Part shown: piece by piece, positions 1 through 59,622 of the stretch
How the letters are laid out: the number at the start of each line of letters is the position of its first letter
Numbering within the stretch: the first letter of the stretch is position 1
Source of the DNA: Canibacter zhuwentaonis
Lineage (GTDB): Bacteria > Actinomycetota > Actinomycetes > Actinomycetales > Microbacteriaceae
Direction of reading: 5' to 3'
Assembly (NCBI RefSeq): GCF_018531145.1
Contig: NZ_JAHDSZ010000010.1
Span: 1-64,000 of the forward strand
Length of the DNA: 64,000 nucleotides
Position numbers and translations under genes: made by a program
The notes under the pieces: model-generated
Told to the model about the DNA's origin: nothing
Database searches by the model: none
Seen by the model: only the letters and a program-made list of their open reading frames with translations

Positions 1-897
1 AACATCACCCCTTACAACAACCTGTCCTTCAGTAAGCCCCACAGGCTGAAACGAAGCCTTCAACACCGTTTTACGAGAAACAATTGTAAACATGGCTTGA
101 GAGGGAGTGGCGGTGAAAGATTCTGAATGGGCAACACCACCAAGTTTGCCGATAGGAAACTCAATCACTCCGTCAGCGGTAGTCCTAACCGTGTGAGACC
201 CAATATGGTTTGTTGCAGTACCTTTTATTAGAACAGTGTCATCAAACAACTGTGCCGCGCCGTCGTCCTTACTGTGATAAGAACGTAAACTACCAGTTAG
301 CGTACGTGACTGTTGGTTATAGTTCCATTGAAAACCAGACAATGTGCAAGCAAGCTGGTTTGTGCAATTCCTCGTTTTGAAGGGGCCTTTGGTGAGTGTT
401 TCTTGTGATATTGTAAACCCGGTGGGTAGTTGAACACTGAAGTTAACGTTAATAGTATAAAAACTTGATGCATCATTTATCTGCTCAACCATCCGGTACG
501 CCGTATTGTTATACCTGAATGACACTTGGATGCTAGCTGCTTCACCGGGGTAGTATTCTGTTTTGTCGGTTGTTGTTGTGGTTGTGACTAGATCCGTGAT
601 GGTGGTGCGGTTTATTCCGGCTGGTAGTTGTGTAGTGTGCGGGGGGTTTGTTGCTGGTTTGGTTTTGCTTGTGTTGTTTGCACCAGTGTTGCCTGGTTGT
701 AGGCTGGTGGTAGTTGTGGTGGGTTTAACAGGTTTATCACCTGCTACTTGCAGCAGCGTGTTTTGCCCTGTTGCAACACCCACCCCAACGGTTTGACCTG
801 TTTGTACGCTAGCTAGTGTGCTGAACACCAGCGCTAGTGTGAGAATGTTTGAAACAACACCCCGTGCCTGCAACAGCAAAGAAACCACACCAGTCAA
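1..897 (-). CDS. LPXTG-type pilus/adhesin protein, N-terminal part (runs off left edge)
   Basis: The reading frame is open from position 897 to the window edge, so about 299 residues are visible and the C-terminus is missing. A TTG start at 897 lies 5 bases after a GGAGG ribosome site (903-907). It gives a signal peptide with a hydrophobic stretch near residues 17-30, then a Thr/Pro/Asn-rich linker, then extracellular beta-sandwich sequence containing YYPGEAASIQVSFRYN. An in-frame ATG at 963 is possible but has no ribosome site. The visible part is clearly homologous to the cassette at 2690-4615, which ends in LPLTG, so this protein is probably a sortase-anchored surface adhesin or minor pilin. 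Of the array's members in this window it is the only one with promoter, ribosome site and signal peptide together, so I infer it is the expressed copy. Confidence 0.75.
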   Translation of the reverse strand, partial: MTGVVSLLLQARGVVSNILTLALVFSTLASVQTGQTVGVGVATGQNTLLQVAGDKPVKPTTTTTSLQPGNTGANNTSKTKPATNPPHTTQLPAGINRTTITDLVTTTTTTDKTEYYPGEAASIQVSFRYNNTAYRMVEQINDASSFYTINVNFSVQLPTGFTISQETLTKGPFKTRNCTNQLACTLSGFQWNYNQQSRTLTGSLRSYHSKDDGAAQLFDDTVLIKGTATNHIGSHTVRTTADGVIEFPIGKLGGVAHSESFTATPSQAMFTIVSRKTVLKASFQPVGLTEGQVVVRGDV

Positions 898-938
898 AAC
901 AACCTCCAAACAAACACCCCTAAAACCCCCTATATAAG

Positions 939-967
939 ATATAAGAGCTTCAGACCCTAGCATCCAA
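939..967 (-). promoter_or_regulatory. Putative promoter of the first adhesin gene
   Basis: On the minus strand TTGGAT (967-962) is followed after 17 bases by TTATAT (944-939). The start codon is about 40 bases further on. The 14-base homopolymer at 989-1002 lies 21 bases upstream of the -35-like element. Confidence 0.4.
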
Positions 968-988
968 AATAAACCACCATTAAAACTA

Positions 989-1002
989 CCCCCCCCCCCC
1001 CC
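989..1002. repeat. Homopolymer of 14 C (14 G on the coding strand)
   Basis: An uninterrupted run of 14 C at 989-1002 sits just upstream of the putative promoter of the leftward adhesin gene. Poly-G/C tracts of this length are well known slipped-strand mispairing sites controlling phase-variable surface genes. Here the tract is outside the reading frame, so any effect would be on transcription. Confidence 0.9.
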
Positions 1003-1228
1003 GGAAAAGTCAAACCAAACAACCCCCTACACACCACCAACACCCCCCAAACCCACTAAAACAAAACCCCCAATACACGCAAACAGCAAAATAAACACTA
1101 AACCGACACAAAACCACACCGTATAAAGTTTTAACTCCACGAAAACTAAACCCCGAAAGAAACCTTTTAACACCAAAGAACCATGCAATCCAAGCAGTTC
1201 CAACCTATTAGTGAGTATAGGAAGTTTG
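1003..1228. repeat. Non-coding 3' flank of cassette B, repeated after cassette D
   Basis: No gene is seen here. Positions 1201-1231 match 5962-5992 in inverted orientation over 31 bases, covering the stop region of both major-pilin copies. Positions roughly 1105-1180 match 6176-6255 imperfectly, again inverted. The strand bias is strong (C/A-rich on plus). The segment between these matches and the C tract shows no recognisable element. Confidence 0.6.
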
Positions 1229-2584
1229 TTAATGTTGCATATTGTTTTTGTTTGCGGTGAGTTTTCGTTTCCTGTGTACTATAGCAACGGTTATTAGGCC
1301 TGTAGCTATGAGTATTCCACCGGTTGTTAGCATGATTGTTTGACCTTGTGCGCCGGTTAGAGGAAGCGCAGGAACTGTGACTTTGCTGTTGTAAACAGTT
1401 ACTGTTGCAGGGTTAGTTAGAGTGTTATTTTCACCCACGGTAACTGGCATACATGTATCGTTAAGCACGTATCCGGTTGGGGCTTTAATTTCTTTTATGC
1501 TGTATTTGCCGGCTTTAACCGCAATGGGTGAAACCAGTTTACCCGTATCGCGTGTTACAAGCATTTCTTGTAGGTCTACTTTAGTTGTGCAGTCGTTACC
1601 GGTGTAGAGTTCGAAGGTTGCGCCTGATATTGCGATCATGGTGTCTTTAACATATTTTTGAATATCAAAATACCCGTAGATGAGAGTTGGTGCGCCACCC
1701 GGACCACCACCCGGCACAGGGTCTGGTGTTGACTGTGTGGTATCTCCTCCACCAGAGGTTTTGATTCTAACGTTGGCGGTGTTTACAATCTTCCCGGGAT
1801 CGTTTACTGTGGTTGTGATTTTGAATGTAACAGTCTGACCTCCTCTAAGGGTTGTTGTGTCATCTAAGCTGCCTGCTAGGGTTCGGTTTCCGTTTCCTGT
1901 GGCGGTAACGGTTACACCAACCTCCATGCCGTTAACCTGCGCGGTAGTTTCAACGTAGCCTAGGTTTTCGGCAAGCTGGTCTGTGAAGCTTACCTCTGTG
2001 AATGTTTCACCATTTTGGAGTTCTGGTAGTACTTGTGTGATAGTCCAGGTGACACTATCACCGAGTTTTGTAGCACCCTTATCGTCTAGGGTTTTAGTTG
2101 GTTTAGCGCTAACAGTGTTTTTTGGGTAGACGTGTACGTTATAGTTCCACGCGTTGCCGTTTGGGTGGGGTACGGTAACAATAAAAGGCGCAGCCTTTTT
2201 AACCACACCAGCAGGAGCATTGGTTTCTGTAACCAGATAAGCACCAATATCAAGATCACTGAATGTGGCTTCCCCGTTATCGTCTGTTGTTCGGGTAGTT
2301 TCAGACCCCGCTGCTACCCTGTTTTTAGCTTGATCAGCGGTTAGGGTTTTAAGCGTCATCCAGTCGGTGTCTTGTGTGAGATCAAGATTGAGTTTTTGAA
2401 TCTTAAACTCTACCCCAGCAATCGCAACCCCCGCAGGGTTTTCAATCTGTCCTGTGCCGGGGTTGCCTTGAAGGGTTTGCTGTTTGTGTTTATGCACAAT
2501 AATCGAACCCCGCTGGCTTGTGTCAATATCACCGGGCGCGGCGGCGTTAGCCGGTTGTGTAAGGATCAACCCACCCGCAACCAA
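1229..2584 (-). CDS. SpaA-type major pilin (cassette B), 5' end probably missing
   Basis: Isopeptide-forming fimbrial protein of about 451 residues. It has an E-box-like YLVTETNAPAG near 117-126, a pilin motif with VYPK (Lys near 155), a Gly/Pro-rich linker, a Cna_B-type domain with E-box IKEIKAPTGY, and a C-terminal LPLTG (about 407-411) with membrane helix and Arg/Lys tail. A sortase would crosslink such subunits through the VYPK lysine into a shaft. The TTG at 2584 leaves only a shortened signal peptide ending PANA. Upstream codons are open back to the TAA at 2690-2692 but contain no ATG, GTG or TTG and no convincing ribosome site. That frame is the same as the preceding adhesin cassette. 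It is therefore either a silent donor cassette or expressed unusually. It is close to cassette D at 4609-5964. Confidence 0.8.
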   Translation of the reverse strand: MVAGGLILTQPANAAAPGDIDTSQRGSIIVHKHKQQTLQGNPGTGQIENPAGVAIAGVEFKIQKLNLDLTQDTDWMTLKTLTADQAKNRVAAGSETTRTTDDNGEATFSDLDIGAYLVTETNAPAGVVKKAAPFIVTVPHPNGNAWNYNVHVYPKNTVSAKPTKTLDDKGATKLGDSVTWTITQVLPELQNGETFTEVSFTDQLAENLGYVETTAQVNGMEVGVTVTATGNGNRTLAGSLDDTTTLRGGQTVTFKITTTVNDPGKIVNTANVRIKTSGGGDTTQSTPDPVPGGGPGGAPTLIYGYFDIQKYVKDTMIAISGATFELYTGNDCTTKVDLQEMLVTRDTGKLVSPIAVKAGKYSIKEIKAPTGYVLNDTCMPVTVGENNTLTNPATVTVYNSKVTVPALPLTGAQGQTIMLTTGGILIATGLITVAIVHRKRKLTANKNNMQH

Positions 2585-2689
2585 CAGCTTACTAAAACAA
2601 CCACACCACCCGCCGGTGTTAGCCAGCCTGCAGGGGCTGACACCCGAGCGGTGAAACCACTTGCCGCCTGTTGCTTCTGCTTGTGGGTG

Positions 2690-4369
2690 TTACACGCGAG
2701 CCCGTAGCCGTCTGCGTGCTACAAGCCCCGCCGCAACACCAACTATCAGTACACCTGCTCCTGCTAGATATAGCCAGTCGGTTGCGATTCCGCCGGTGAG
2801 TGGCAGCGGTGGTGCTACGGCCATGAATTTGCGTTGTAAACGAACTGTGTGTTGAACTGTTTCGTCCATCATAACCTGTTGCAGTTGATACACCGACGGG
2901 GTTTGGCTGGTGAACTCCCAACCATCAGGGGCTGTCATGTTGCGTACTGTTACTGTGCAATTACTGCCAGCCCATACTATTTTATGTATAACTTGGGGCG
3001 CTCCTGCGCCGTTAACAAGCGCAGCGTAGTTTAGCGTGTACGTGAACGTAGCGTTATGCTTAAACGGGGTAACACAGTTGATACTACCCGACACTGTCAC
3101 AACACCACTAGCGGGGTGTTCTCCTTCGGGTTTTACAATGAGTGAGACTGTGACCCTTTTGTTTGTGACATTAAAACTTGCTCTTGAAGTGTTATTGTTT
3201 TGGTTAGCGTCTGTAAACGTCGCGCTGGTGGTTGCAGTGAAACTACGGCTGTTAGCATCAAAGAACCCTGCTTTGCCTGTAACGGTTACTTTAATGCTGC
3301 CTCCGGCTGGAATAACCGGTATTGTTGCTGTTACCGTGTGACTAGCTGCGTTGTACACCCACTGGGCAGGACACATAGCACCACGCCCTGTGGTGGTGCA
3401 TGTTGAGTTTACTGTGGCGGCAGTGTTTACAAACCCGCCCTTTGGTAGTTGGATTGTGACGGGGATGTTACGCGCCTCATAGCCGCTGGCTGTGATTGTT
3501 GATATTACCTGTACCGGCTGGCCTGCGGCTACTGTTGGTGTGGGGGTGGTTGTTTCGGTGGATACTTCGATTGGTATTTTTTCAACCTCCAGCCGTATTG
3601 TGCTGGTGCGTGAGCTGGTGATGTTTGATTCTGTTTGGGTGATACGGTCGGGTGTTTTCCATCTCCAGCCTGCTGGAACAGCGCCCTTAACAATGGTTAT
3701 CACACAGGTGCTACCTGCATCAACCATGTTGTTTAATTCTCTGTTCCATTTGCCGCCTACTAGCTGGTTGTGTTTTAGAGTAAACCTAAGATTAGTACGC
3801 CTGTCTGATTGGCCTTGGGGGTTAATGCATAAAACCTCGCCTGTTACAACAACCTGTCCTTCGGTGAGCCCTACAGGCTGAAACGAAGCCTTCAACACCG
3901 TTTTACGGGGTACAATCCGAAACACCGCTTGAGAGGGAGTGGCGGTGAAAGGTTCTTGCACATCATTAACACGAGAATTGGTTTTGTCGATGTAGGTAAA
4001 ATCTAAAAGCCCGTTAGCGGTAGTCCTAACTGTGTGGGATGTGTTGGGTGTGCCTGTTACTGTTCCTGTTATGTTAAGTTCCTCAAAAAGCTGGTACTCA
4101 CCGCCGTACTTATAGTGGGGGGTGGGTGTGGGGAAACTACCGGTGAGCCTGCGTGACTGTTGATTGTAACTATATTCAAAACCATCCGCCATACATGCCC
4201 GCTGATCAGTGCAGTCTCTTGTGAAGGGGCCTCTGGTTAGTGTGTCTGGTGAGATTGTAAACCCGGTGGGTAGTTGAACCCTGAAGTTAATTTTAACAGT
4301 ATACGAATCCTGATCGGATTGAATATACTGCACCTCCTGGTATGCCACCTCGTTATACCTGAATGACAC
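2690..4369 (-). CDS. LPXTG adhesin / minor pilin (second copy), 5' end missing
   Basis: The open frame actually extends from 4615 to 2690, but the first available start codon is GTG 4369, which cuts off conserved sequence. The region upstream of 4369 matches the first adhesin (Thr-rich linker, then YYPGEAASIQ). The match stops at VAGG near 4595, so the signal peptide and start are lost. It contains several extracellular beta-sandwich repeats of DUF11-like character, ends with LPLTGG, one membrane helix and an Arg-rich tail, and stops with TAA at 2690. The lost region has been replaced by the reverse complement of the major-pilin signal sequence of cassette D. I read it as a silent cassette; the alternative is a degraded gene. 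Confidence 0.75.
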   Translation of the reverse strand: MSFRYNEVAYQEVQYIQSDQDSYTVKINFRVQLPTGFTISPDTLTRGPFTRDCTDQRACMADGFEYSYNQQSRRLTGSFPTPTPHYKYGGEYQLFEELNITGTVTGTPNTSHTVRTTANGLLDFTYIDKTNSRVNDVQEPFTATPSQAVFRIVPRKTVLKASFQPVGLTEGQVVVTGEVLCINPQGQSDRRTNLRFTLKHNQLVGGKWNRELNNMVDAGSTCVITIVKGAVPAGWRWKTPDRITQTESNITSSRTSTIRLEVEKIPIEVSTETTTPTPTVAAGQPVQVISTITASGYEARNIPVTIQLPKGGFVNTAATVNSTCTTTGRGAMCPAQWVYNAASHTVTATIPVIPAGGSIKVTVTGKAGFFDANSRSFTATTSATFTDANQNNNTSRASFNVTNKRVTVSLIVKPEGEHPASGVVTVSGSINCVTPFKHNATFTYTLNYAALVNGAGAPQVIHKIVWAGSNCTVTVRNMTAPDGWEFTSQTPSVYQLQQVMMDETVQHTVRLQRKFMAVAPPLPLTGGIATDWLYLAGAGVLIVGVAAGLVARRRLRARV

Positions 4370-4575
4370 TTGGATGCTAGCTGCTTCACCGGGATAGTAT
4401 TCTGTTTTGTTTGTTGTTGTGCTTGTGACTAGATCCGTGATGGTGGTGCGGTTTACCCCGGCCGGCAGCTGTGAAATATGTGGGGGTTTTGTGTTTGTTG
4501 CTGGTTTGGTTTTGCTTGTGTTGTTTGCACCAGTGTTGCCTGGTTGTAGGCTGGTGGTAGTTGTGGTGGGTTTAA

Positions 4576-4615
4576 CAGGTTCACCACCAGCTACTTGTTG
4601 CGGGTGGGTTGATCT
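4576..4615. other. Head-to-head chimeric junction between two truncated pilin cassettes
   Basis: The minus-strand adhesin frame opens at 4615 and the plus-strand major-pilin frame opens at 4576, so they overlap for 40 bases with no start codon for the adhesin and only an internal TTG for the pilin. Homology to the other adhesin begins at about 4595 going left, and homology to the other major pilin begins at about 4594 going right. The two cassettes are thus fused at nearly one point, as expected of recombination. Confidence 0.7.
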
Positions 4616-5964
4616 TTACACAACCGGCTAACGCCGCCGCGCCCGGTGATATTGACACAAGCCAGCAGGGTTCGATTATTATGCACAAACATAAACAACA
4701 AGGCCCTCAAGGCAACCCCGGCACAGGACAAATTGAAAACCCTGCGGGGGTTGCGATTGCTGGGGTAGTGTTTAAGATTCAAAAACTCAATCTTGATCTC
4801 ACACAAAACACCGACTGGGAAACGCTTAAAAATTTAACCGTTGATCAAGCTAAAACCAGGGTAGTTATGGGGTCTGAAACTACCCAAACAACAGACAACA
4901 ACGGGGAAGCCAGATTCAATGGTCTAGCTGTTGGTGCTTATCTGGTTACAGAAACCAATGCTCCCGATAATGTGGTTAAAAAGGCTGCGCCTTTTATTGT
5001 TACCGTACCCCACCCAAACGGCAACAACACGTGGAACTATAACGTACACGTCTACCCAAAAAACACTGTTAGCGCTAAACCATCTAAAACCCTAGACGAT
5101 AAGGGTGCTACAAAACTCGGTGACAGTGTCACCTGGACTATCACACAAACACTACCAGAACTCCAACAAGGTGAAACATTCACAGAGGTAAGCTTCACAG
5201 ACCAGCTACAGGAAGGCCTAGAATACGTTGAAACTACCGCGCAAGTTGACGGCCGTGAGGTTGGTGTAACCGTTGCTGCCACAGGAAACGGAAACCGAAC
5301 CCTAACAGGTCACTTAGATGACACAACAACCCTCAGGGGAGGTCAGACTGTTACATTCAAAATCACAACCACAGTAAATAAACCCGGGAAGATTGTAAAC
5401 ACCGCAAACGTTAGAATCAAAACCTCTAATGGAGGGGACACCACACAGCAAACCCCAGACCCAGACCCGAATGGTGGCCCAGGTGGTGGCCCGGGTGGCG
5501 CACCAACTATCTTTTTCGGGTATTTTGATATACAAAAATATGTTACAGGCACCATGATCGTAATATCAGGCGCAACCTTCGAACTCTACACCGGTAACAC
5601 CTGCACAACTAAAGTAGACCTACAAGAAACCCTTATAACACGCGATACGGGTAAACTAGTTTCACCCATCCCGGTTAAAGCCGGCACATACAGCATAAAA
5701 GAAATTAAAGCCCCAACCGGATACGTGCTTAACGATACATGTACGCAGGTTACCGTGGGTGAAAATAACACTCTAACTAACCCTGCAACAGTAACTGTCT
5801 ACAACAGCAAAGCCATTGTTCCTGCGCTTCCTCTAACCGGCGCACAAGGCCAAACAATCATGCTAACAACCGGTGGAATACTCATAACAGCTGGAATAGC
5901 AGCCGTTGCTATAGTACACAGGAAACGAAAACTCACCGCAAACAAAAACAATATACAACATTAA
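4609..5964 (+). CDS. SpaA-type major pilin (cassette D), 5' end missing
   Basis: Close homologue of cassette B in opposite orientation, with the same architecture: truncated signal sequence ending PANA, E-box, VYPK pilin motif, Gly/Pro linker slightly longer than in B, Cna_B domain with IKEIKAPTGY, LPLTG anchor, membrane helix and HRKRK tail. Differences from B come in patches between invariant blocks (for example around NTVSAKP and DTGKLVSP), a mosaic typical of gene conversion between cassettes. TTG 4609 is the only in-frame start candidate, has no ribosome site, and removes the start of the signal peptide. The frame is open only from 4576. I infer a silent donor copy. Confidence 0.8.
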   Translation: MIFTQPANAAAPGDIDTSQQGSIIMHKHKQQGPQGNPGTGQIENPAGVAIAGVVFKIQKLNLDLTQNTDWETLKNLTVDQAKTRVVMGSETTQTTDNNGEARFNGLAVGAYLVTETNAPDNVVKKAAPFIVTVPHPNGNNTWNYNVHVYPKNTVSAKPSKTLDDKGATKLGDSVTWTITQTLPELQQGETFTEVSFTDQLQEGLEYVETTAQVDGREVGVTVAATGNGNRTLTGHLDDTTTLRGGQTVTFKITTTVNKPGKIVNTANVRIKTSNGGDTTQQTPDPDPNGGPGGGPGGAPTIFFGYFDIQKYVTGTMIVISGATFELYTGNTCTTKVDLQETLITRDTGKLVSPIPVKAGTYSIKEIKAPTGYVLNDTCTQVTVGENNTLTNPATVTVYNSKAIVPALPLTGAQGQTIMLTTGGILITAGIAAVAIVHRKRKLTANKNNIQH

Positions 5965-6006
5965 CAAACTTCCTATACTCACTAATAGGTTGAACCAAAA
6001 AAGCAA

Positions 6007-6042
6007 GTGGGTGCTGTGTGATTAGATTCACACAACACCCAC
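6007..6042 (+). terminator. Strong hairpin after cassette D
   Basis: Arms 6007-6021 and 6028-6042 are 15 bases with one mismatch and a 6-base loop TTAGAT. It lies 42 bases after the major-pilin stop and is probably a transcription stop. Confidence 0.6.
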
Positions 6043-6060
6043 CCTTTCACACCCACCACC

Positions 6061-6083
6061 AAACACCCATTTTTTGGGTGTTT
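6061..6083. terminator. Second hairpin after cassette D
   Basis: AAACACCC and GGGTGTTT arms around a T-rich loop, about 20 bases after the first hairpin. The near symmetry would let it act on either strand. Confidence 0.5.
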
Positions 6084-6090
6084 AAATCGC

Positions 6091-6224
6091 CTGGTTCTCT
6101 AGCGTTAAAAGATTTCTTTCGAAACTTGTGTTCTCGTGTGGATGGGTTTTGCGGGTTTGAAACTGTCTGTAATGTCTGGTTCTCTAGGGTTAAAAGTTTC
6201 TTTCGAAACTTAGTTCTCGTGGAG
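6091..6224 (+). repeat. Imperfect direct repeats in the 3' flank
   Basis: Two units of about 49 bases, at 6091-6139 and 6176-6224, each start CTGGTTCTCTAG and contain TTTCTTTCGAAACTT. The second unit can form a hairpin (arms AAGTTTC and GAAACTT). A third, inverted, diverged copy lies near 1139-1190. Open frames through this region look accidental. Confidence 0.65.
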
Positions 6225-6262
6225 TTAAACTTTATACAGTGTGGTTTTGTGCCGGTTTAGCA

Positions 6263-6618
6263 TTTATCATGCCAGTTGTACAAGAGTAGTGAGGTTGTGG
6301 GGTTTAACGCTCCAGGAGGAGTGATAGAACACCACACCAATGATAAAATAAGTATATAGAAAAAGTTGTGTCCACGGAGCAACAGTAGGAAGACAGGGAA
6401 ATAATCGAAGAAACAAGTCGATGTGTATTTTAATTTTATAGGCAACTGTTAAGTACCACAGAATAAAAAAATAATACCTAAAATTTTATAAAAATAACCT
6501 TTTGAACCACACTTAAAACTTGTGATTTTACAAGTTTTTTGTTATTGTTAATTAAACTTGAGGGGTATAAAATAAATGCATCTTATCAACCGTTTCGGAA
6601 GATTTTAGGAGATAAAAA
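6263..6618. other. AT-rich non-coding left border of the restriction island
   Basis: No gene is seen. Base composition becomes markedly AT-rich from about 6330, marking the edge of acquired DNA. No insertion-site duplication or transposase was recognised. A promoter for the island genes lies at its right end. Confidence 0.5.
6545..6573 (+). promoter_or_regulatory. Promoter of the restriction-modification genes
   Basis: TTGTTA (6545-6550), 17-base spacer, TAAAAT (6568-6573). The regulator start codon is 46 bases downstream with its own ribosome site. Confidence 0.5.
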
Positions 6619-6783
6619 ATGAAGAAAAAAGGCTTGATTGAGATAGTAAACATTTCAAGGAATTGTGCTGCTCATATGGGTAATAATAAATATATTTCAA
6701 TGGCAAATATTAACCGTATATGTGAAGCTTTAGAGTGCATCCCAAATGATGTATTTCAGTTCTGTGTAAGTGATAAAAGATAA
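6619..6783 (+). CDS. Small Cro/C1-type helix-turn-helix regulator, N-terminally short
   Basis: A 54-residue frame starting at ATG 6619, 7 bases after AGGAG. The C-terminal half contains NINRICEALECIPNDVF, the typical end of the small Xre-family regulators found in Firmicutes, where full members are about 65-70 residues. Here the N-terminal first helix seems to be missing, and the expected glycine-threonine turn is altered. It lies directly before the methylase, and such proteins often control restriction-modification operons. Because the fold is incomplete, DNA binding is doubtful. Codon use is AT-rich like its downstream neighbours. Confidence 0.6.
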   Translation: MKKKGLIEIVNISRNCAAHMGNNKYISMANINRICEALECIPNDVFQFCVSDKR

Positions 6784-6796
6784 GGAGAATAAGACT

Positions 6797-7651
6797 ATGA
6801 CTAAAAATTCAAGAAAAAAGAATGTCGTTCTTTCTCCTGTAGTAAAGTGGGTTGGTGGCAAAAGACAGCTACTAAGTGATATAGTTCCACTTATTCCAAA
6901 GACATTTTCCACTTATGTTGAGCCTTTTGTGGGTGGAGGAGCAGTCATATTTGATATTCAGCCTAAAAAAGCAGTTATAAACGATTTTAATAGTGATCTG
7001 ATAAATATTTATAAGGTAATTAAAGACAAACCTAATGAATTAATTTCAGCTTTAGAAAATCATGAACGACTTAATTCAGAGGAATATTTTTATGAAGTTA
7101 GGGCATTAGATAGAAATGAAAACTATAGTGTAATGACAGATATAGAAAAAGCCGCAAGAATTATCTATCTAAATAAAACATGTTTCAATGGGTTATTTAG
7201 AGTAAACCAAGCAGGACAATTTAATTCACCTTATGGAAAATATGAAAATCCTAATATAGTTAATATGCCTGTTGTATTAGCCATGTCAAAATATTTTAAT
7301 GAAAATAATATAAAAATAATTAATGGGGATTATAAAAAACCTTTAAAAAACTTGACAAGAGGTGCATTTGTATATTTTGACCCACCATATATGCCGATTT
7401 CATCTTCATCATCTTTTACGGGTTACACGGAAAATGGATTTGATAAGAAGCAACAAATCGAACTAAAGGAAGAATGTGATAAATTAAACTCTAAAGGGAT
7501 TAAGTTTTTATTGTCTAACTCAGATCATCCTTTTATTAGAGAGTTATACAAGCATTATGAAATTATTACTGTAAAAGCAAAACGTTCAATAAATAGGAAT
7601 GGAAATAAACGTGGAGAAATAAATGAAGTGTTGGTAAAGAACTACGCATAA
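6797..7651 (+). CDS. DNA adenine methylase, Dam/DpnM family
   Basis: Site-specific N6-adenine methyltransferase of the D12 class, about 284 residues, that protects DNA from the partner endonuclease. Motifs in order: WVGGKRQLL near the N-terminus, EPFVGGGAVIFD (AdoMet binding), YLNKTCFNGLFRVN, and catalytic DPPYMP near the middle. D12 enzymes of this kind often methylate GATC, but the target here is inferred. ATG 6797 follows AAGGAG by 9 bases; an upstream in-frame GTG at 6770 overlaps the regulator gene and looks less likely. The endonuclease start follows after one base. Composition is far more AT-rich than the backbone, indicating transfer from a Firmicute-like donor. Confidence 0.92.
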   Translation: MTKNSRKKNVVLSPVVKWVGGKRQLLSDIVPLIPKTFSTYVEPFVGGGAVIFDIQPKKAVINDFNSDLINIYKVIKDKPNELISALENHERLNSEEYFYEVRALDRNENYSVMTDIEKAARIIYLNKTCFNGLFRVNQAGQFNSPYGKYENPNIVNMPVVLAMSKYFNENNIKIINGDYKKPLKNLTRGAFVYFDPPYMPISSSSSFTGYTENGFDKKQQIELKEECDKLNSKGIKFLLSNSDHPFIRELYKHYEIITVKAKRSINRNGNKRGEINEVLVKNYA

Positions 7652-7652
7652 A

Positions 7653-8950
7653 ATGAATATTGATGAAGCTTGGACTAAACTTTTTGAAAAATATGATATT
7701 TTTAGCGAAATTAAGAGCGAAGGAGCCTTTTATATTACTGCTAGTCAAATAAAATTTTTTAAAGAACCAAGATTAATGGCAAAATGGGATAGCTCCGAAA
7801 ATTTACCGAGTATTTTCAAAAAACACAATATCAACATCTTACCCATTAGCCGAACAAAATATATTTTAAGTGATTTTAAGTTGTATGAACCAATTCCAGA
7901 ATTGGGAGAACATATAACTGAAATGCAAAAAGTGGAAATTCCTGAATATGAAACGATTGATATTGGAAACATATCATCAGAAGCAAATGCAATTAATGTT
8001 CTAATGCTTTCAAAAATATTAGATGATTTTTAGATGAAGATAATAATATTGCTACATTTAATGGCAGAATGGGTACAGGTGTTTTCAGTTTTCGTGTAGA
8101 TAGACATCGAGGAACTGCATTTCAAGTTGATGTTGAAAATGCACAATGTGAAATTGATGGAGGAATGGAAAATGATAATTCAGTTGTTATTTTAGAAGCA
8201 AAAAATGTTGTTCATCCAGATTTTCATGTAAGGCAACTTTATTATCCGTATAGATTATGGGCAAGTAAAGTTAATAAGCCTATTAGACTTGTTTTTTCTA
8301 TTTATTCAAACCAAATATATAGATTATTTGAATATGAGTTTGAAGATAAAAATAACTATTCATCAATAAGATTGGTAAAATCTAAAAACTATTCTTTACA
8401 AGATACGGATATTTCTTTAAATGAGATTTATGATGTGTATTCTAATGTAGAAGTTGTTTATGATGATAATCAAAATAAAACCGATATCCCTTTTATACAA
8501 GCTAATTCTTTTGAAAGAATTATATCGCTTATGGAATTACTTTTCGAGGAAGAAAGAACGGCGGAAAATATAGCTGAAAAAATGGAATTTGATTTAAGGC
8601 AATCTGATTATTATCACAATGCAGGTAGGTATCTTGGATTATTCGAGAAGAAAGCTGTTAAAGAAGAAGATGGAAAAAAAGTAAAAAAAGTTTTTTTATC
8701 TAGATTGGGGAGGGACACAGTAAAACTTAGATACAAAGAACGTCAATTGAAATTGGTTAGTTTGATTTTAGAGCATGAAATATTTAATAAGCTATTTCTA
8801 AAGGTTTATAATGGTGGAGAGTTGCCTACCAAAGAGGAAATTCAAAATATTATGAGAGAAAATAATGTGTGTAATGATCAACAGATAGTTAGACGTTCCA
8901 GTTCGGTTTATTCATGGCTTAAATGGATATTTAACTTACAAAATATATAA
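7653..8950 (+). pseudogene. Type II restriction endonuclease interrupted by a single frameshift
   Basis: Two adjoining frames make one protein. The first (7653-8033, 126 residues) begins MNIDEAWTKLFEKYD and stops at TAG 8031-8033. The second is open from 8030 to 8950 and continues the family sequence directly (LDEDNNIATFNGRMGTG). Adding one T to the T run at 8027-8031 restores a protein of about 431 residues. From memory the sequence resembles the type II enzymes with DUF6996/DUF6997 domains that sit next to Dam-like methylases. The probable nuclease core has acidic and lysine residues in the IDGG and ILEAKN segments of the second part. Loss of the nuclease would leave an orphan methylase. 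A sequencing error cannot be excluded. Confidence 0.75.
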
Positions 8951-9080
8951 ACCACAAAAGTGTATTTTTATGTAGTACATACAGAAGTTTATTGTCGAGA
9001 TAGCAGAAATGTTATCTCTTTTTTTGTTGTTCAAAACAGAAAAGGGAAACAGAAAATGAAAAATATATAGAAAACTTTTA

Positions 9081-21922: not shown

Positions 21923-22375
21923 TTAGGTCACGTCCGTTTTTGCCGCGCAGCTGCGCGCCTCAATCGCAAACGCTCTTAACACCGTAGTGTTTTTATGCGT
22001 GCGCAGAGTGACGCAGTGCAGCGCTGCATCCGCTGCCACCGCCCGATATTCAACGCCCTCGCCTAAATCGCCGCGATATTTTGCCGCTTGTGCAGTGTCT
22101 CCCCGGGCTTCGAGCCGCGCGATTTCAGCAGCGGCGGATATTAGTTTTATTTTCTGCGCGCTAACGGATAAGCCGCCAACAATCAGCGCGAGAGTAACCA
22201 CCACAACGGGCAGCAGGATCGCAAATTCGGCGGTAACTCCCCCTTTTTCGCTCCGCACCAATTTCGCAATGGAAGTTAGTTCCATTTTTCCGTTGCGCGC
22301 GAACTTCGCAACTAAGGTTAATCCCGATTTTTTGCTCCACATTAGCCCTGCAATGGCGGTTACTCTGCGCAACAC
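21923..22375 (-). CDS. TadE-family minor pilin
   Basis: 150 residues from GTG 22375. EKGGVTAEFAILLPVVVVTLAL near residue 43 is the TadE prepilin-like signature, with the processing site before the hydrophobic helix. The exported part has two cysteines. The upstream 40 residues are unusually long and basic, so an internal GTG near 22258 (start of VRSEKGGV) may be the true start. It follows the DUF4244 pilin after 5 bases, as in mycobacteria. Confidence 0.75.
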   Translation of the reverse strand: MLRRVTAIAGLMWSKKSGLTLVAKFARNGKMELTSIAKLVRSEKGGVTAEFAILLPVVVVTLALIVGGLSVSAQKIKLISAAAEIARLEARGDTAQAAKYRGDLGEGVEYRAVAADAALHCVTLRTHKNTTVLRAFAIEARSCAAKTDVT

Positions 22376-22380
22376 GAGAG

Positions 22381-22767
22381 CTACCCTGCGCTGTTGAGGG
22401 CGTTTTCTATTAGCCGCGTGAGAGCCGCACGAACTTCGCCGCTGCGCATAATAACAACGAGAAGACCCGCAAAAGCAACGGCTGCGATAATCACAATTGC
22501 GTACTCAGCCGTCACTCCGCCGCGTTCTGAGCTCAGCAGTTGTTGCGCTCTGTGCAAACGCCTGCACCGCTCTTTGTAGCTTGTGCGCCCGCGCATTAGA
22601 TTTACAAACAGCAAATACCTGCGCGCATTCGCAACATAAAATCGGTGCAACCATAAATATAAATAAACGTCTAAAAATCTAAACCCCGAATACGAGACCG
22701 AGTTAGATTTATTACGCGGTTGCGCACAAGCTGAGATCCGCTCACGGATGCTATTTAGTGTGAACAT
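22381..22767 (-). CDS. DUF4244 family Flp-type pilin subunit
   Basis: 128 residues from ATG 22767, which follows AGGAG by 5 bases. The C-terminal 50 residues contain ERGGVTAEYAIVIIAAVAF, the Flp/DUF4244 pilin signature: short prepilin leader ending before a Glu-containing hydrophobic helix. This would be the main pilin of the Tad machine. The N-terminal 75 residues are long, basic and aromatic, which is more than the usual leader of this family. No prepilin peptidase gene lies in the window. Confidence 0.8.
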   Translation of the reverse strand: MFTLNSIRERISACAQPRNKSNSVSYSGFRFLDVYLYLWLHRFYVANARRYLLFVNLMRGRTSYKERCRRLHRAQQLLSSERGGVTAEYAIVIIAAVAFAGLLVVIMRSGEVRAALTRLIENALNSAG

Positions 22768-22914
22768 TTTTACTCCTGTTCTAGTATGTGAGACTTCAAT
22801 TATCACGGCGTTGCAGGGGTGCACCGCCTAAAAATCAGATACCTGTTGATAACCGCGCAGCTGCTCGTTTTACAGGGGCTGTGGATAACGTTTTAATCCG
22901 CAACCACCCGCGGT

Positions 22915-23787
22915 TTAATCCCCAACCCCCTGCAACATCGCAACAACAAGCGGAATCACACCCGTTAAAATAAACGCTGGAAGCACACAGCACGCTAACG
23001 GCAAAAGCGCTTTTGTGCCCAGTTTTTCCGCCGCGGTCTCTAGTTTTTCGAGCTGCTTGCGACGAGCTTCAAGCGCCACCTCCTGCAGCGCCGTGTTAAA
23101 ACCGGCTCCCGCGTAACGCATTTTTGCCAGCACCGAATCAACAGACCCGTCCGCAGCAAGCTCGTCCGTGTTCAACCACTCTGCATTGTTGCTGCAGATT
23201 GCATCCGCCACCAGTTTTTTAGCCTGTGCCGCGGCAAAACCCCCGCACATAGCAAGGGCGACCAGCTCGCTCTCGTAACCGGCAAGGCTCTCCAGCCGCG
23301 CAACCTGCGCAGTCATGCGCCGCAACCACAGAACACCAACAAGCATCAAACAGGCGGCGGCAAACAGCAGCAATACGCCGTATCCGCGCAGCAGCACGCG
23401 GAGCGGATCAAACCCAACCAGGTAGCCCATCGCAACGCCAAACAACGGCAGCGCTGCAACCAAAGCCATGCTAGCTTTAATACCGCTGAGCAGCACCCGT
23501 CTGCGTTTGCGAGCTTCTAGCAGGGCGTCAAACGCACGCGCCAGGCTTTGCAACCCCCACGCATAGGGAGCGCCCGTTGTGATGGCAATATCTTGCACAA
23601 CTCGCAAAACGCTCGCCGCACGGCTGTTTTGCTCTAGTGAAACGGCAGCCGAGGCTGCAACCCCTGCGCGCAGGCAAGCCGCCGCGCTCTGCAATTCCTG
23701 TTTGTATTGTGCAAGTTCGGCGTCGAATTTGCTTTCGCTATCACCCGGCATAATCGCGGCTATTTTGGACAGATAGCGCGCTTTCAT
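22915..23787 (-). CDS. Type II secretion F-domain membrane protein of the Tad locus
   Basis: 290 residues with membrane helices near 104-120, 135-158 and 265-285, plus cytoplasmic segments rich in Ala, Leu and Arg. This is the TadB/TadC platform protein that anchors the ATPase. Usual Tad loci have two such proteins (TadB and TadC); only one is visible here. The start overlaps the ATPase stop (ATGA), showing translational coupling. Confidence 0.8.
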   Translation of the reverse strand: MKARYLSKIAAIMPGDSESKFDAELAQYKQELQSAAACLRAGVAASAAVSLEQNSRAASVLRVVQDIAITTGAPYAWGLQSLARAFDALLEARKRRRVLLSGIKASMALVAALPLFGVAMGYLVGFDPLRVLLRGYGVLLLFAAACLMLVGVLWLRRMTAQVARLESLAGYESELVALAMCGGFAAAQAKKLVADAICSNNAEWLNTDELAADGSVDSVLAKMRYAGAGFNTALQEVALEARRKQLEKLETAAEKLGTKALLPLACCVLPAFILTGVIPLVVAMLQGVGD

Positions 23788-25244
23788 GATCTAACAAGCT
23801 GTGTTTCTGTGTTCTCAAGCCAGGTGTCGTTAACCCCCGCGAATCCAGTGGTTGATATTTTCTCGTACCCCGCCGCGTCCGATACAGAAAAGCTTGTGCC
23901 GCCCGCAGGTCCGCCATCCACAACCGCGGACGCGTCGCTAACCGCACCCGCAACCCCCGCATCAACGCTAATCTGCAGCTCACCGTTTGCGCCTAGCCGC
24001 GGCGCACCCAGCTGCGCAATCCGCAATTGCCCGTTACCATTGCGCCGCAACTGCACAACCAGATGCACCGCCGCAACAACCTGTTTTGCAAGCGCCACCG
24101 CACCCATTCCAGCGAGCGCTCCAAGCGCCTCCAGGCGCGCAGGAAGCTCACCCAGCCCGGAACAGTGCACAGTGCTCATTCCACCGCTGTGACCGGTGTT
24201 AAGCGCGTTTAACATAGTGGCAAGCTCCGCACCACGGCACTCGCCAAGCACTAGCCTGTCGGGTCGCATCCGCAACGCCTGTTTCAAAAGTTCATCAAGG
24301 CTCACCGCTCCCCCCGCCTCGCTGTTTGCAGCGCGCGATTCAAGCGCCACATGGTGCGGATGCTCTAGCACAATTTCGGTGACATCCTCGATTGTGATAA
24401 TCCGCTGATTCGCTTCAGCCGCATCCAGCAGCGCCCGCAAAAGCGTTGTTTTGCCCGTTGCGGTCCCGCCGCTAATCAGAATATTACGCCGCGCAGACAC
24501 AGCAGCGAGTAGCTGCCGCGCAACTTGCTCACTGCACGTTCCGTTATGCACCAGGTCACGCAGTGCTAGGCGCTGCAGGTTTGGCACGCGGATCGAAATC
24601 GCCGCCCCGTGCACCGCTATCGGTGCCAGCACCGCGTGCACTCGAATTCCCGCGCCAAGCCGCACATCTTGCGCCGGGTGCAGCTCATCAAGCTGACGCC
24701 CGCCCGCTACAATCAGTCCGCAAGCAAACTCGCGTAGCTCGCGCGCATGGCGGATCGGCGGAGTGAAGCTCTGCATTGCGCCGTCAATATCTGCCCACAA
24801 CTGCACTCGCTCACCCCGACTCTGGACGAAAATGTCGCGCACTCCCGGCCTGTCAAGCAGGGGCAGCAGCCACGAAAACGCCCTTTTTTGGTGCAACAGA
24901 AGCGTCTCGCTGATCACCGTCAGAGGCGGCAGGTTTTGCGCAGCACCGCGCACATTCACGCCCGTACTCCCGCGCGCTCTTGAAGCCGGTGCGCCAGCAC
25001 TCGGCACGCCAACGGCGCTCAGCAAACTCCCGTGCACGCTCCCGCGCGTGCTTGAGTCCGGCGATCCCGCGCCCGCAAAGCTCACAGCACCCGGCACGCC
25101 CACGCCAAAAGCGCCCGGCATAAACTCCGCTGCGGGCATAAAGGCAGATTCTAGCTGCGGCGGCATAAAAGCATTAAGCGGCGGCGATGCGCCGCTGGTT
25201 TGCCGATCAAGCGATAGCGCGTGTTTTTTCGTAAAAAATTTCAT
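23784..25244 (-). CDS. tadA: Tad/Flp pilus assembly ATPase, CpaF/TadA family
   Basis: About 486 residues from ATG 25244; an in-frame GTG at 25265 is possible and neither start has a good ribosome site. A Gly/Ala/Pro-rich N-terminal region precedes a secretion ATPase domain with Walker A SGGTATGKTTLLRALL, the Asp/His boxes (TIEDVTEIVLEHPHHV) and LVLGECRGAE. The C-terminus has another low-complexity Ala/Gly/Asp stretch. It is the first gene of the Tad cluster. The usual TadZ/Ssd partner upstream is absent. Confidence 0.9.
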   Translation of the reverse strand: MKFFTKKHALSLDRQTSGASPPLNAFMPPQLESAFMPAAEFMPGAFGVGVPGAVSFAGAGSPDSSTRGSVHGSLLSAVGVPSAGAPASRARGSTGVNVRGAAQNLPPLTVISETLLLHQKRAFSWLLPLLDRPGVRDIFVQSRGERVQLWADIDGAMQSFTPPIRHARELREFACGLIVAGGRQLDELHPAQDVRLGAGIRVHAVLAPIAVHGAAISIRVPNLQRLALRDLVHNGTCSEQVARQLLAAVSARRNILISGGTATGKTTLLRALLDAAEANQRIITIEDVTEIVLEHPHHVALESRAANSEAGGAVSLDELLKQALRMRPDRLVLGECRGAELATMLNALNTGHSGGMSTVHCSGLGELPARLEALGALAGMGAVALAKQVVAAVHLVVQLRRNGNGQLRIAQLGAPRLGANGELQISVDAGVAGAVSDASAVVDGGPAGGTSFSVSDAAGYEKISTTGFAGVNDTWLENTETQLVRS

Positions 25245-25315
25245 GCAATAATTTTTAGCTGCCACTGACGCTATCGAGTCTAAAACCGTGAAACCTGTGC
25301 AAAACCTGGCTTATC

Positions 25316-54166: not shown

Positions 54167-55363
54167 TTAGTGCCCCTCGTGCACATTCCAGGTGCCGGTT
54201 ACAATCGGTAGCGTGCTATCGGCATACACTCGCGCACCGTCACGCAACCCAACAAATCTGTATGGTGCGCGCGTTTTTCGCGAGTTTGAGTAATTCACAG
54301 CGCTGCCCCGCTCGTGAGCAACGTGCAGGTCTCGATACTCTTCAAAACTAAGCTCTGTGCGCCCCGCAATTTCTTGCGCCGCAATATTAGGGTGCAAAAA
54401 CCGCTCGTAACCGGGCTGCACAACACCCGTAAAAAACTCTCCCTCGGCACCGGATCCGTAGCTGTAGCAACCGATACGCTTACCAGATAGTTCTCGCTTA
54501 AAATGCAACAGCGACAGCAAGCCGATGTAGAGCGAAGCCGTGTAACAGTTGCCCAGGTAGGGGGTATAATTCAGGCTTGGCTCAACCCGTGACTCCTCAA
54601 CGTTTTTGCCCGTGTGCTCAACCAGCCTGCGATGCCCCTTAATCGCCATTTTCGTAAACGGCTGATGGTGCACAAAAAAATCAATCTCCGCAAGCTCAAA
54701 TCCGCCGCGCGCACGGTAATCTTCCCAAGCCCCCGTGAACGCACCCAAATAGGCATCCATCGAGCGCTCGCCATCAACGAGCGGGGTTGACAGATCGTTC
54801 GGCCGCCAAAAATCATCGATGTGAGCCGACCAGATACCAGAAACCGGCTCGATTTCGAGCAGCGCCGGATCCGCCCCAATAATCATCGCAACAGCGCCCG
54901 CACCCTGCGTTGGCTCGCCAGCGGACGCGACCGCATACCGCGCGATATCGCTTGCCACAACAAGCACCCGCTCGCTCGGGTTGCGGCTCACCAGCCCCAG
55001 CGCCAGCTGCAGCGCTGCCGTGCCCGCATAACACGCCTGTTTAGTCTCAATAACTCGCACCGCGGTGCTCAACCCGAGCAGTGAGTGCACAAACATACCC
55101 GCCGATTTTGACTGGTCAACCCCGCTTTCGGTGGCGAAAATCAGGGTGCGGATCCCCTCCTGCCCGGCACGCTCCAGCACCCGCGCAGCGGCGGTTGCGC
55201 CGAGTGTCACAGCGTCTTCATCAAGCGCGGGAATAGAAAAAGCCTCCTGACGCAGTCCGAAGCGATACTTGTTTGGGTCAACTCCTGTTGCTTTTGCGAG
55301 CGTGTCCAGCCTCACAACGTAATTAGCGCTGGCTAGCTCCATGTCTACAATGCCGAGCTTCAC
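54167..55363 (-). CDS. mvaS: Hydroxymethylglutaryl-CoA synthase
   Basis: Condenses acetyl-CoA with acetoacetyl-CoA. About 398 residues from GTG 55363, one base after the reductase stop. Catalytic Glu in FATESGVDQSKS (about residue 79), Cys in TKQACYAGT (about 111) and His in FFVHHQPF match the Gram-positive enzymes. Last gene of the mevalonate operon. A longer start at 55387 would overlap the reductase without homology. Confidence 0.94.
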   Translation of the reverse strand: MKLGIVDMELASANYVVRLDTLAKATGVDPNKYRFGLRQEAFSIPALDEDAVTLGATAAARVLERAGQEGIRTLIFATESGVDQSKSAGMFVHSLLGLSTAVRVIETKQACYAGTAALQLALGLVSRNPSERVLVVASDIARYAVASAGEPTQGAGAVAMIIGADPALLEIEPVSGIWSAHIDDFWRPNDLSTPLVDGERSMDAYLGAFTGAWEDYRARGGFELAEIDFFVHHQPFTKMAIKGHRRLVEHTGKNVEESRVEPSLNYTPYLGNCYTASLYIGLLSLLHFKRELSGKRIGCYSYGSGAEGEFFTGVVQPGYERFLHPNIAAQEIAGRTELSFEEYRDLHVAHERGSAVNYSNSRKTRAPYRFVGLRDGARVYADSTLPIVTGTWNVHEGH

Positions 55364-55364
55364 T

Positions 55365-56414
55365 TTACACCCCGTGCTTGCGCTCAATTGCGACGTGCGT
55401 TGCCATTAGTTCTCCGGGATTGGTTTGCGCGGCGAGCAGGCTCAGCTCCCCGCAGAGCACCGTGGCGGCGGTAATTGCCGCTAGACGCCGCGCATTTTCA
55501 CCGGGGTCACGCGCCTCGGCGCAGCCCATCCGCCGCAAATTCTCGGTGATCCTGCAAAGGTTTTTGCCGTTGCCAACCGTGCCCATAATCAGGTTGGACA
55601 GGGTGCATGAAAAATACAGTCCTCCGAGGCGTTCTTGCGCGTAAGTGATGCCCTGCGAGCCCTCCACGATGTTGGCCGCGTCTTGCCCCGTTGCCAGATA
55701 CACTCCCAGCAGCATATTTGCGTAGTGCGCGTTAGCCGCGCGCACAGAACCCGCAAGAATTGAGCCGACCAGGTTTTTTTGGGTTGAAAGCTCGGTAATT
55801 TTTGCTGCGCTCGAGCGCAGGCGACGCGTTACAATCTCGTGCGGCAGGAAAATCTCGGCGATTGCCGCTTTGCCCCGACCTAAAATGCTGTTCACCGCAG
55901 CAGGTTTTTTATCGGCACAAACATTACCCGAAATTGAGCCGTAACTGAGCCCTAAATCCCAGCTTAAAATCTCGTTCATAAGTTTTTCCGCCGCGGCGGT
56001 GACCATATTATGCCCCGACGCATCTCCCGTTGTGAACGCAAACCGCACAAACAGCAGATTACCCACAATCTCAGTGCTAATCTCGGTGAGCTGTGCAAAT
56101 CGGCTCTGTTGCACCACAAGCTCTGCCAGGTTTGCGAAGCACTGCTCGATCCGCTCTGCCGCAGCAACAGCAACAACCGCAGAATCTGCGGTGAAAATAA
56201 CCGAGCGAGTCATTTTTTCGCCGGTGATTGTGACGGTTATACCACTGGCAACCTCGCGTGAGATGCTAGCGCCACGCCCCACAGAAGGCCATAGCGGAGT
56301 CTCGTAGGTGGCAAGCGGCACATAAACTTCCTCCTGCAGCACATTACCGCTAATACGCAGCGGACCTATCCACTGTGTTGGAATGGGGGTAATTAGTGTT
56401 TCTCGCTCGCTCAT
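55365..56414 (-). CDS. mvaA: Hydroxymethylglutaryl-CoA reductase
   Basis: Reduces HMG-CoA to mevalonate, the committing step. 349 residues. Catalytic Glu in YETPLW (about 38), the GDASGHNM segment that binds cofactor and substrate, catalytic Lys in CADKKPAAVN and GTVGNGK are visible. The start overlaps the idi stop (ATGA). Whether it uses NADPH or NADH is not certain from sequence alone. Confidence 0.94.
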   Translation of the reverse strand: MSERETLITPIPTQWIGPLRISGNVLQEEVYVPLATYETPLWPSVGRGASISREVASGITVTITGEKMTRSVIFTADSAVVAVAAAERIEQCFANLAELVVQQSRFAQLTEISTEIVGNLLFVRFAFTTGDASGHNMVTAAAEKLMNEILSWDLGLSYGSISGNVCADKKPAAVNSILGRGKAAIAEIFLPHEIVTRRLRSSAAKITELSTQKNLVGSILAGSVRAANAHYANMLLGVYLATGQDAANIVEGSQGITYAQERLGGLYFSCTLSNLIMGTVGNGKNLCRITENLRRMGCAEARDPGENARRLAAITAATVLCGELSLLAAQTNPGELMATHVAIERKHGV

Positions 56415-59610: not shown

Positions 59611-59622
59611 TCAATTCTACTG

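Follow-up and report, generated by a model that had tools for sequence, protein, structure and literature searches.

In Canibacter zhuwentaonis, a small-genome actinobacterium, the first 6,262 nucleotides (nt) of contig NZ_JAHDSZ010000010.1 appear to be one end of a dispersed library of silent cassettes for two cell-wall-anchored surface proteins, called A and B here. This block opens the stretch that we analyzed, a window of 64,000 nt that starts contig C26 of a 28-contig, 1,410,484-base assembly, with base 1 of the window being the first base of the contig. The genome holds the library, mosaicism among its copies, reading frames that have stayed open, a promoter-bearing gene that is a mosaic of two silent copies, a set of poly-G elements and a class C sortase. 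Taken together, these features make it probable that B, and by extension A, is varied by segmental gene conversion and expressed from phase-variable poly-G promoters. Promoterless, 5'-truncated cassettes would exchange segments by homologous recombination with a few B genes equipped with a promoter, a start codon and a signal peptide, and slippage of the poly-G run that separates -35 from -10 should turn each of these expression genes up or down. Such exchange may well be frequent, directed from silent to expressed copies and RecA-dependent; the length of the poly-G run would set expression, the variation would serve immune or niche adaptation, and A would have a recipient gene, which was not found in the assembly.

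A preliminary description of the block had read it as a counterpart of the Neisseria pilE/pilS locus, with one expressed gene and a set of start-less donors. Its account of the layout stood up well: four LPLTG-type frames of two alternating families occupy about 6 kilobases (kb), here positions 1-5964 (Table 1). Only the leftmost has a promoter, of the poly-G type, and a ribosome site, GGAGG at 907-903 preceding TTG 897; the other three lack both. TTG 897 is more likely the start of this gene than ATG 963, because the C20 sister copy has a stop in the frame that its corresponding ATG would open. In the three right-hand frames, no start codon accompanied by a ribosome-site-like 4-mer was flagged as far as the conserved part, the 350 nt upstream of each frame are free of G runs of eight or more, and the complete 3' ends, including LPLTG, are kept. 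Calling these frames start-less was correct, with the amendment that the A copies retain the latter half of their signal peptide, VAGGLI[LF]TQPANA; the part that is missing, read from a complete A gene on C22, is MNLKKFAAIVALPAL. The two A copies of the window are inverted repeats (with three pairs of arms, 437-514 nt long and 90-93% identical, spanning 1201-2589 and 4589-5992), and their alignment bore out the patchy differences that had been noted between them. The silent B cassette of the window shares exact tracts with distant copies, 382 nt at 3767-4148 with C12:4377-4758 and 235 nt at 2984-3218 with C3:5184-5418.

Protein A is a major pilin, matching NF033902 at 269 bits against a cut-off of 95, with GramPos_pilinD1 and SpaA domains and, in the alignment, the YPKN and LPXTG motifs. 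A sequence search of the PDB with A returned known pilins, the best being Spa2 (7woi). Protein B is larger and also carries an LPXTG anchor. The B cassette had no Pfam match at E≤0.001, and the complete B protein matched no PDB sequence at E≤1. Searching by fold with the B model gave many beta-sandwich matches of low template-modelling score (immunoglobulin-like domains of PrgB, pilins, integrins), so that B is predicted to be a string of beta-sandwich domains, the fold search being useful for nothing finer. For these models, the AlphaFold alignment of A was made without copies C3d and C2b and that of B without C2b and smaller pieces, and the B structure and alignment combine silent and promoter-bearing copies.

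The block is matched 105 times at the DNA level within its own genome. Protein A has 23 matches and protein B has 32, seven of which (29-39% identity) represent a third, related family. Homologous DNA found by blastn amounts to 45.8 kb, or 3.2% of the assembly, with complete genes partly included. The truncated copies comprise 15 long pieces of A and at least 12 of B, in both orientations and often joined together, and pieces lie on twelve contigs besides C26. Three contigs consist mostly of cassette fragments (C3, 9.8 of 10.7 kb; C7, 5.8 of 5.9 kb; C9, 3.4 of 3.9 kb), and on ten others (C2, C8, C12, C18, C20, C21, C22, C23, C26 and C27) array pieces reach a contig end. Where the 5' side is assembled, as it is for 13 truncated A segments, a complete signal peptide and start of their own are always lacking; two more segments are cut by a contig end. 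We judged the cassettes promoterless by the absence of the poly-G element: no run of eight or more G lies within 350 nt upstream of any of the 15 truncated A segments, the contig ending within that distance for two (C27 and C7c). Of the truncated A segments, 14 of 15 are open in a single frame, as are 17 of 18 B extracts, the exceptions being A cassette C3d, which is frameshifted, and the C9 B extract, which includes upstream non-coding DNA. The silent, 5'-truncated cassettes first noticed in the block thus extend to a genome-wide library of open-frame, promoterless copies, as is typical of pilE/pilS.

The promoter-bearing B gene at the edge of the contig reads as a mosaic patched from silent copies. 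Positions 511-660 of the window (150 nt) are identical to silent copy C3c (C3:6552-6701), and positions 424-515 (92 nt) to silent copy C3d. The two exact tracts meet with a 5-nt overlap, and neither copy has a poly-G promoter or a flagged start. The switch from C3c to C3d at position 516 is sharp (p=0.00005): 21 of 22 informative sites agree with C3c on one side and 126 of 147 with C3d on the other. Five of the six triples given to this test reached the same p value. When the gene was painted by its nearest relatives, the 5' region was most like the promoter-bearing copy at the C21 end (up to 98%), the next segments most like C9/C27 (94%) and then several copies tied at 97-98%, and the later segments most like C3c and C3d (each up to 100%) and C18/C7b (mostly 93-100%). 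Exact identity joins positions 836-922 to the promoter-bearing copy at the C21 end and positions 1-133 to C18:189-321; the C18 and C7b copies are cut on their 5' side and may be either silent or expressed.

Mosaicism is strong in both families, in line with the gene conversion for which the preliminary description had proposed testing the substitution patches. Likeness between pairs is 84-94% among A cassettes and about 60-98% among B copies when C21m is left aside, and copies are connected by 313 exact tracts of at least 60 nt, the longest being those of 454 nt (C3/C27) and of 382 nt (the window with C12). Besides the C3c/C3d switch test, a single history was rejected by the pairwise homoplasy index (p=0.001, the floor of 1000 permutations) and by a permutation run test (p=0.0005-0.002) in all four overlapping subsets examined, of 12, 9, 9 and 8 copies. 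Trees built from thirds of the alignment, using 11 A and 8 B copies that span the common block, rejected one another in six of six comparisons for A and in four of six for B. These tree tests carry more weight because the column-shuffle null used for tract counts ignores relatedness. Contig ends have exactly 127 nt in common, so the assembly probably comes from a short-read graph with an overlap of 127 nt. Because of this, shorter tracts should not arise from false joins; in the tested gap-free blocks, 61 of 65 A tracts and 49 of 53 B tracts of at least 60 nt fall under that length, as does the 92-nt C3d tract in the promoter-bearing gene.

Twelve poly-G promoter elements of the form TTTGA(C/T)TT...G9-14 were found in the genome, 11 before a surface-type frame and one at a contig end. 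The -10 elements were assigned by eye, and their function as promoters is putative. Five stand at 5' ends of the B family: one precedes a complete gene of 707 amino acids with a G14 run (C21:35045-37168), and contig ends interrupt the genes behind the other four, which lie on C26 (the window), on C7, on C20 and at the C21 end. Two complete A genes on C22 follow a G14 promoter, and a third such element (G13) lies at the end of C22. Promoter-spacer phase variation has this arrangement, in which a homopolymer separates -35 from -10 at more than one surface gene, and poly-G variation of this kind is known as the porA/opc type. The pattern was found in none of four congeners (genomes of 1.3-1.9 Mb), and a stricter version of it was absent from 395 other genomes sampled from the order.

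Similar poly-G runs occur at other loci. A third large surface-protein family, with an LPXTG-like end by eye, stands behind four promoters of the same type (L041:664-3627 and 3-494; L042, C12:153443; L043, C12:476479) and also breaks contigs, the end of C12 and the start of C28 having 127 nt in common. Two tandem genes for secreted-looking proteins (L161, C18:153427 and 156885) each follow the same G13 context. At L163 (C21:18500-23500), a G13 run at C21:19154 lies just upstream of or inside a frame that we take, from its motif, to be DNA methyltransferase-like, making a phase-variable methylation system possible there. In two silent B copies (L030 near 1390 on C9 and L040 near 950 on C27), a terminator-like hairpin with a T run, seen by eye, replaces the poly-G of the promoter remnant.

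A class C sortase, the pilin-polymerizing type, is encoded at C18:8879-9862 (235.6 bits against 160) and is not adjacent to the array in the assembly; a class E sortase is encoded on C28. B was found in none of the four congeners, and a B profile run against 398 genomes sampled from the family gave, besides the genome itself, two marginal matches (E values of 1.4e-4 and 4e-4). Pilins resembling A at 26-44% identity were present in seven of 39 other relatives searched; six of these had one or two matches each and the seventh had four. Since B and the poly-G pattern are rare or absent in the sampled relatives, the cassette system looks recent or confined to C. zhuwentaonis within this sample.

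A number of observations weigh against variation by gene conversion from the library, beginning with the recipient for A. Four complete A genes with full signal peptides form two tandem pairs, one behind groEL where C22 ends and the other where C23 begins, and the pairs are probably adjacent. We considered these genes as recent exchange partners of the A cassettes and rejected them: they have no exact run of more than 20 nt in common with the cassettes and are therefore not evident recipients, and none of them showed the mosaic structure of the B gene. An expressed A gene may be hidden in an assembly gap (for example between C22 and C23), A may be displayed as B-A hybrids, or the A cassettes may be by-products. 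For B, the complete poly-G gene on C21 has no exact run of 15 nt or more in common with the window gene and is 46-60% alike to other copies, the triple C26exp/C3d/C18 gave no significant switch (p=0.32), two of the six comparisons of B trees were not rejected, and the 150-nt C3c tract exceeds the assembler overlap, so that a wrong join could contribute to it. Candidate starts with a ribosome-site-like 4-mer occur inside longer or fused frames in several cassettes outside the window (C12b, C7a, C3a/C3b and C12a), and translation from some of them is conceivable. Variable residues are weakly enriched in loops in A (p=0.036) and not in B (p=0.35). Finally, the exchange is recorded as history in a single genome and not as switching, and the mosaic tracts would fit transfer in either direction.

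These results reshape the earlier proposal. The varied gene had been thought to be the major pilin; the promoter-bearing mosaic that can be demonstrated is B, the complete A genes sharing no exact tract of more than 20 nt with the cassettes. A single expression site had been assumed, and poly-G promoters stand at five B-family 5' ends. The complete operon and sortase expected to the left of the window gained no support: base 1 of the window is also the limit of the contig, and the class C sortase is encoded elsewhere, on C18. The likeness to pilE/pilS is supported for B, with its library and mosaic promoter-bearing gene, and is not supported for the major pilin; that switching is active is inferred. 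The central idea survives, supported for B, having moved there from the major pilin and widened to several phase-variable expression sites.

Ordinary concerted evolution is the rival that fares best, although we consider it unlikely. On this account, a multigene surface family with phase-variable promoters undergoes background recombination, the truncated copies are by-products and no switching is programmed. Exchange is indeed also seen among silent copies and among promoter-bearing copies (the C22 pair has 172 nt in common), and the lack of a recipient for A points the same way. MutS was not found in the genome, and divergent sequences may consequently recombine freely; its absence would fit tolerance of divergent recombination and poly-G slippage. 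What concerted evolution explains poorly is that promoterless pieces keep their frames open and that the library takes up 3% of a 1.41-Mb genome, which is hard to understand if it is purposeless.

An elaboration of the cassette mechanism, which we regard as speculative and rather doubtful, has two layers: poly-G slippage would pick the active sortase-anchored gene, and conversion from about 40-50 kb of cassettes would rewrite it, with hybrid B-A adhesin-pilin proteins as a possible product. Same-strand, in-frame B-A fusions occur at one position, B1052/A90, on C12, C3 and C7, so expression sites could present such hybrids, and their display would explain pilin cassettes that have no recipient of their own.

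Site-specific inversion of the shufflon or vsa type, in which a recombinase flips cassettes at short sites in the signal sequence or linker and so joins a silent gene to a promoter, is improbable. The alternating orientations and the head-to-head B/A pairs (on C2, C3, C7, C9, C12 and C26) would suit it, as would joints that recur at the same gene positions, B1052/A90 three times and A904/EXP327 and B1727/A856 twice each. Head-to-head pairs outside the window have other breakpoints than the pair inside it, and further joints are same-strand A-B (C12, C3) or tail-to-tail (C3, C7). By eye, the joints have only a few bases in common and show no shared motif. Searches with PF00589 and PF00239, other classes of recombinase not being searched, found only two tyrosine recombinases, which match XerD (above the cut-off) and XerC (the best model, below the cut-off), and no serine recombinase. 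An invertase, considered for the inverted arms and recurring joints, was rejected on the lack of a suitable recombinase in these two families and on the segmental nature of exchange, which runs in patches inside genes and not by whole-cassette swaps alone.

Decay of functionless pseudogene arrays left by duplication and rearrangement is very unlikely. In its favor, fragments are many and chimeric joints common, a frameshift disrupts A cassette C3d, and a stop interrupts the B fragment C3:217-717. Against decay, 13 A and 9 B copies contained no stops, where about 19 and 25 would be expected under neutral drift at an assumed 5% (A) and 6% (B) per site; the median ratio of non-synonymous to synonymous substitution rates was 0.62 for A and 0.40 for B; and copies keep tracts identical to the promoter-bearing gene. 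These tests used 13 of the 15 truncated A segments (omitting the frameshifted C3d and the short C2b) and 9 of the 18 B extracts, trimmed to the open frame. Frames could also stay open through conversion with functional copies. Least credible of all is an assembly artefact or a mixture of strains, since, although the exact 127-nt overlaps, the contig ends falling in arrays and identical tracts of up to 454 nt would permit misjoined short-read repeats, most tracts are shorter than the overlap, the contamination estimate is 0.05 and no single joint decides how many cassettes there are.

Antigenic variation from silent cassettes is known in Neisseria, Borrelia, Anaplasma, Treponema and mycoplasmas, the MgPar layout of Mycoplasma genitalium among them. 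The cassette system of C. zhuwentaonis would share with pilE/pilS its promoterless, 5'-truncated silent copies, a mosaic expressed gene, segmental conversion and G-rich DNA near the promoter. It differs in having wall-anchored proteins of sortase type, two intermixed families, several expression genes and a poly-G run inside the promoter where Neisseria has an upstream G4 element. Because A and B are sortase-type LPLTG proteins and not type IV pilins, the system may work like pilE/pilS without being a member of it. Pilin antigenic variation in Neisseria is treated in PMC3899283, PMC12108084, PMC3547852 and PMC10094033.

Other known systems resemble parts of this arrangement. As with the mgpB/mgpC repeats of M. 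genitalium (in part of PMC4534519), fragments of two surface genes are scattered and intermixed in a small genome and exchanged in segments; many inverted and chimeric joints, LPXTG proteins, poly-G promoters and several expression sites set the present case apart. Segmental gene conversion draws on silent cassettes in Borrelia vlsE/vls, where likeness to the expressed gene is about 90% (PMC11499132), and on functional pseudogenes in Anaplasma msp2, A. phagocytophilum having about 100 donor pseudogenes in a 1.4-Mb genome (passages of PMC4534519). Those systems vary a lipoprotein or an outer-membrane protein, vls at a single expression site, whereas here two families of LPXTG proteins would be varied at several sites. 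Tropheryma whipplei is, likewise, a reduced-genome actinobacterium, and its WiSP surface-protein family marks the endpoints of an inversion and of a deletion, but those proteins carry WND repeats and are not sortase pilins, and the relevant passages of PMC2078596 describe no start-less cassette library. Poly-G tracts at actinobacterial surface genes have precedents in Bifidobacterium, where pili switch by in-frame G-tracts and other tracts are mentioned in promoter spacers (passages of PMC9187656), and in Gardnerella, which has many variable homopolymers, most G/C tracts lying upstream of genes (passages of PMC11287997). In C. zhuwentaonis the promoter spacer is where the tracts of pilin and B genes are found, unlike the pilus tracts studied in Bifidobacterium, which act within the coding frame; the passages on these two genera describe no cassette library.

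Among the matches listed in open-licence literature, none concerned a silent-cassette library for sortase-anchored proteins or in actinobacteria, and the main text of the review PMC4534519 does not contain the words Gram-positive, Actinobacteria or Firmicutes. Our analysis suggests that a small-genome actinobacterium may keep changing its surface as the bacteria of gonorrhoea and Lyme disease do; the related Canibacter oris is reported from bite wounds (in part of PMC8165742). If this is true, C. zhuwentaonis would offer a wall-bearing, probably cultivable Gram-positive for studies of donor choice and switching that involve neither type IV pili nor linear plasmids. The case would also be a warning, as short-read assemblies break exactly where such cassette libraries lie.

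Table 1. Features of the array at the start of the window (window positions; promoter putative).
Feature	Position	Strand	Description
Promoter of B gene	979..1013	-	-35-like TTGACT 1013-1008; G14 in spacer 1002-989; TAGTTTTAAT 988-979
B frame, promoter-bearing	963->1	-	5' half only; runs off the window, cut by contig start
Silent A cassette 1	1229..2584	-	SpaH/EbpB-type major pilin, YPKN motif, LPLTG; signal peptide reduced to second half, without start
B-to-A spacer	2585..2690	-	Repeated at other B 3' ends (C2, C3, C8, C18, C21, C22)
Silent B cassette	2690..4597 (5' end approximate)	-	Without start or promoter; full 3' end, LPLTG
Head-to-head junction of truncated B and A cassettes	4588..4612	strandless	Inside signal-sequence regions of both
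Silent A cassette 2	4594..5964	+	Inverted relative to A cassette 1; without start
3' flank	5965..6262	+	End of array homology in C26; repeated in array members on C2, C3, C7, C22, C23

An Rfam search of window positions 1-9000 at gathering scores found nothing. A scan for consensus promoters gave nine sites against 7.5 expected by chance, which is no excess; the poly-G promoter is not among them, its spacing being outside the range of the scan. Terminator-like sites were in excess (20 against 8.3 expected), some of them being the poly-G itself. Adjoining the array, positions 6770-8950 hold an AT-rich insert (about 28-32% G+C) with a D12-class adenine methyltransferase followed by DUF6996, DUF6997 and DUF7226 frames, looking like an acquired restriction-modification unit. 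Farther along the window, frames at 21923-25265 resemble, by eye, a Tad/Flp-type secretion ATPase and pilus parts, and the translations of a cluster at 54167-60600 resemble, also by eye, mevalonate-pathway enzymes from HMG-CoA synthase to mevalonate kinase.

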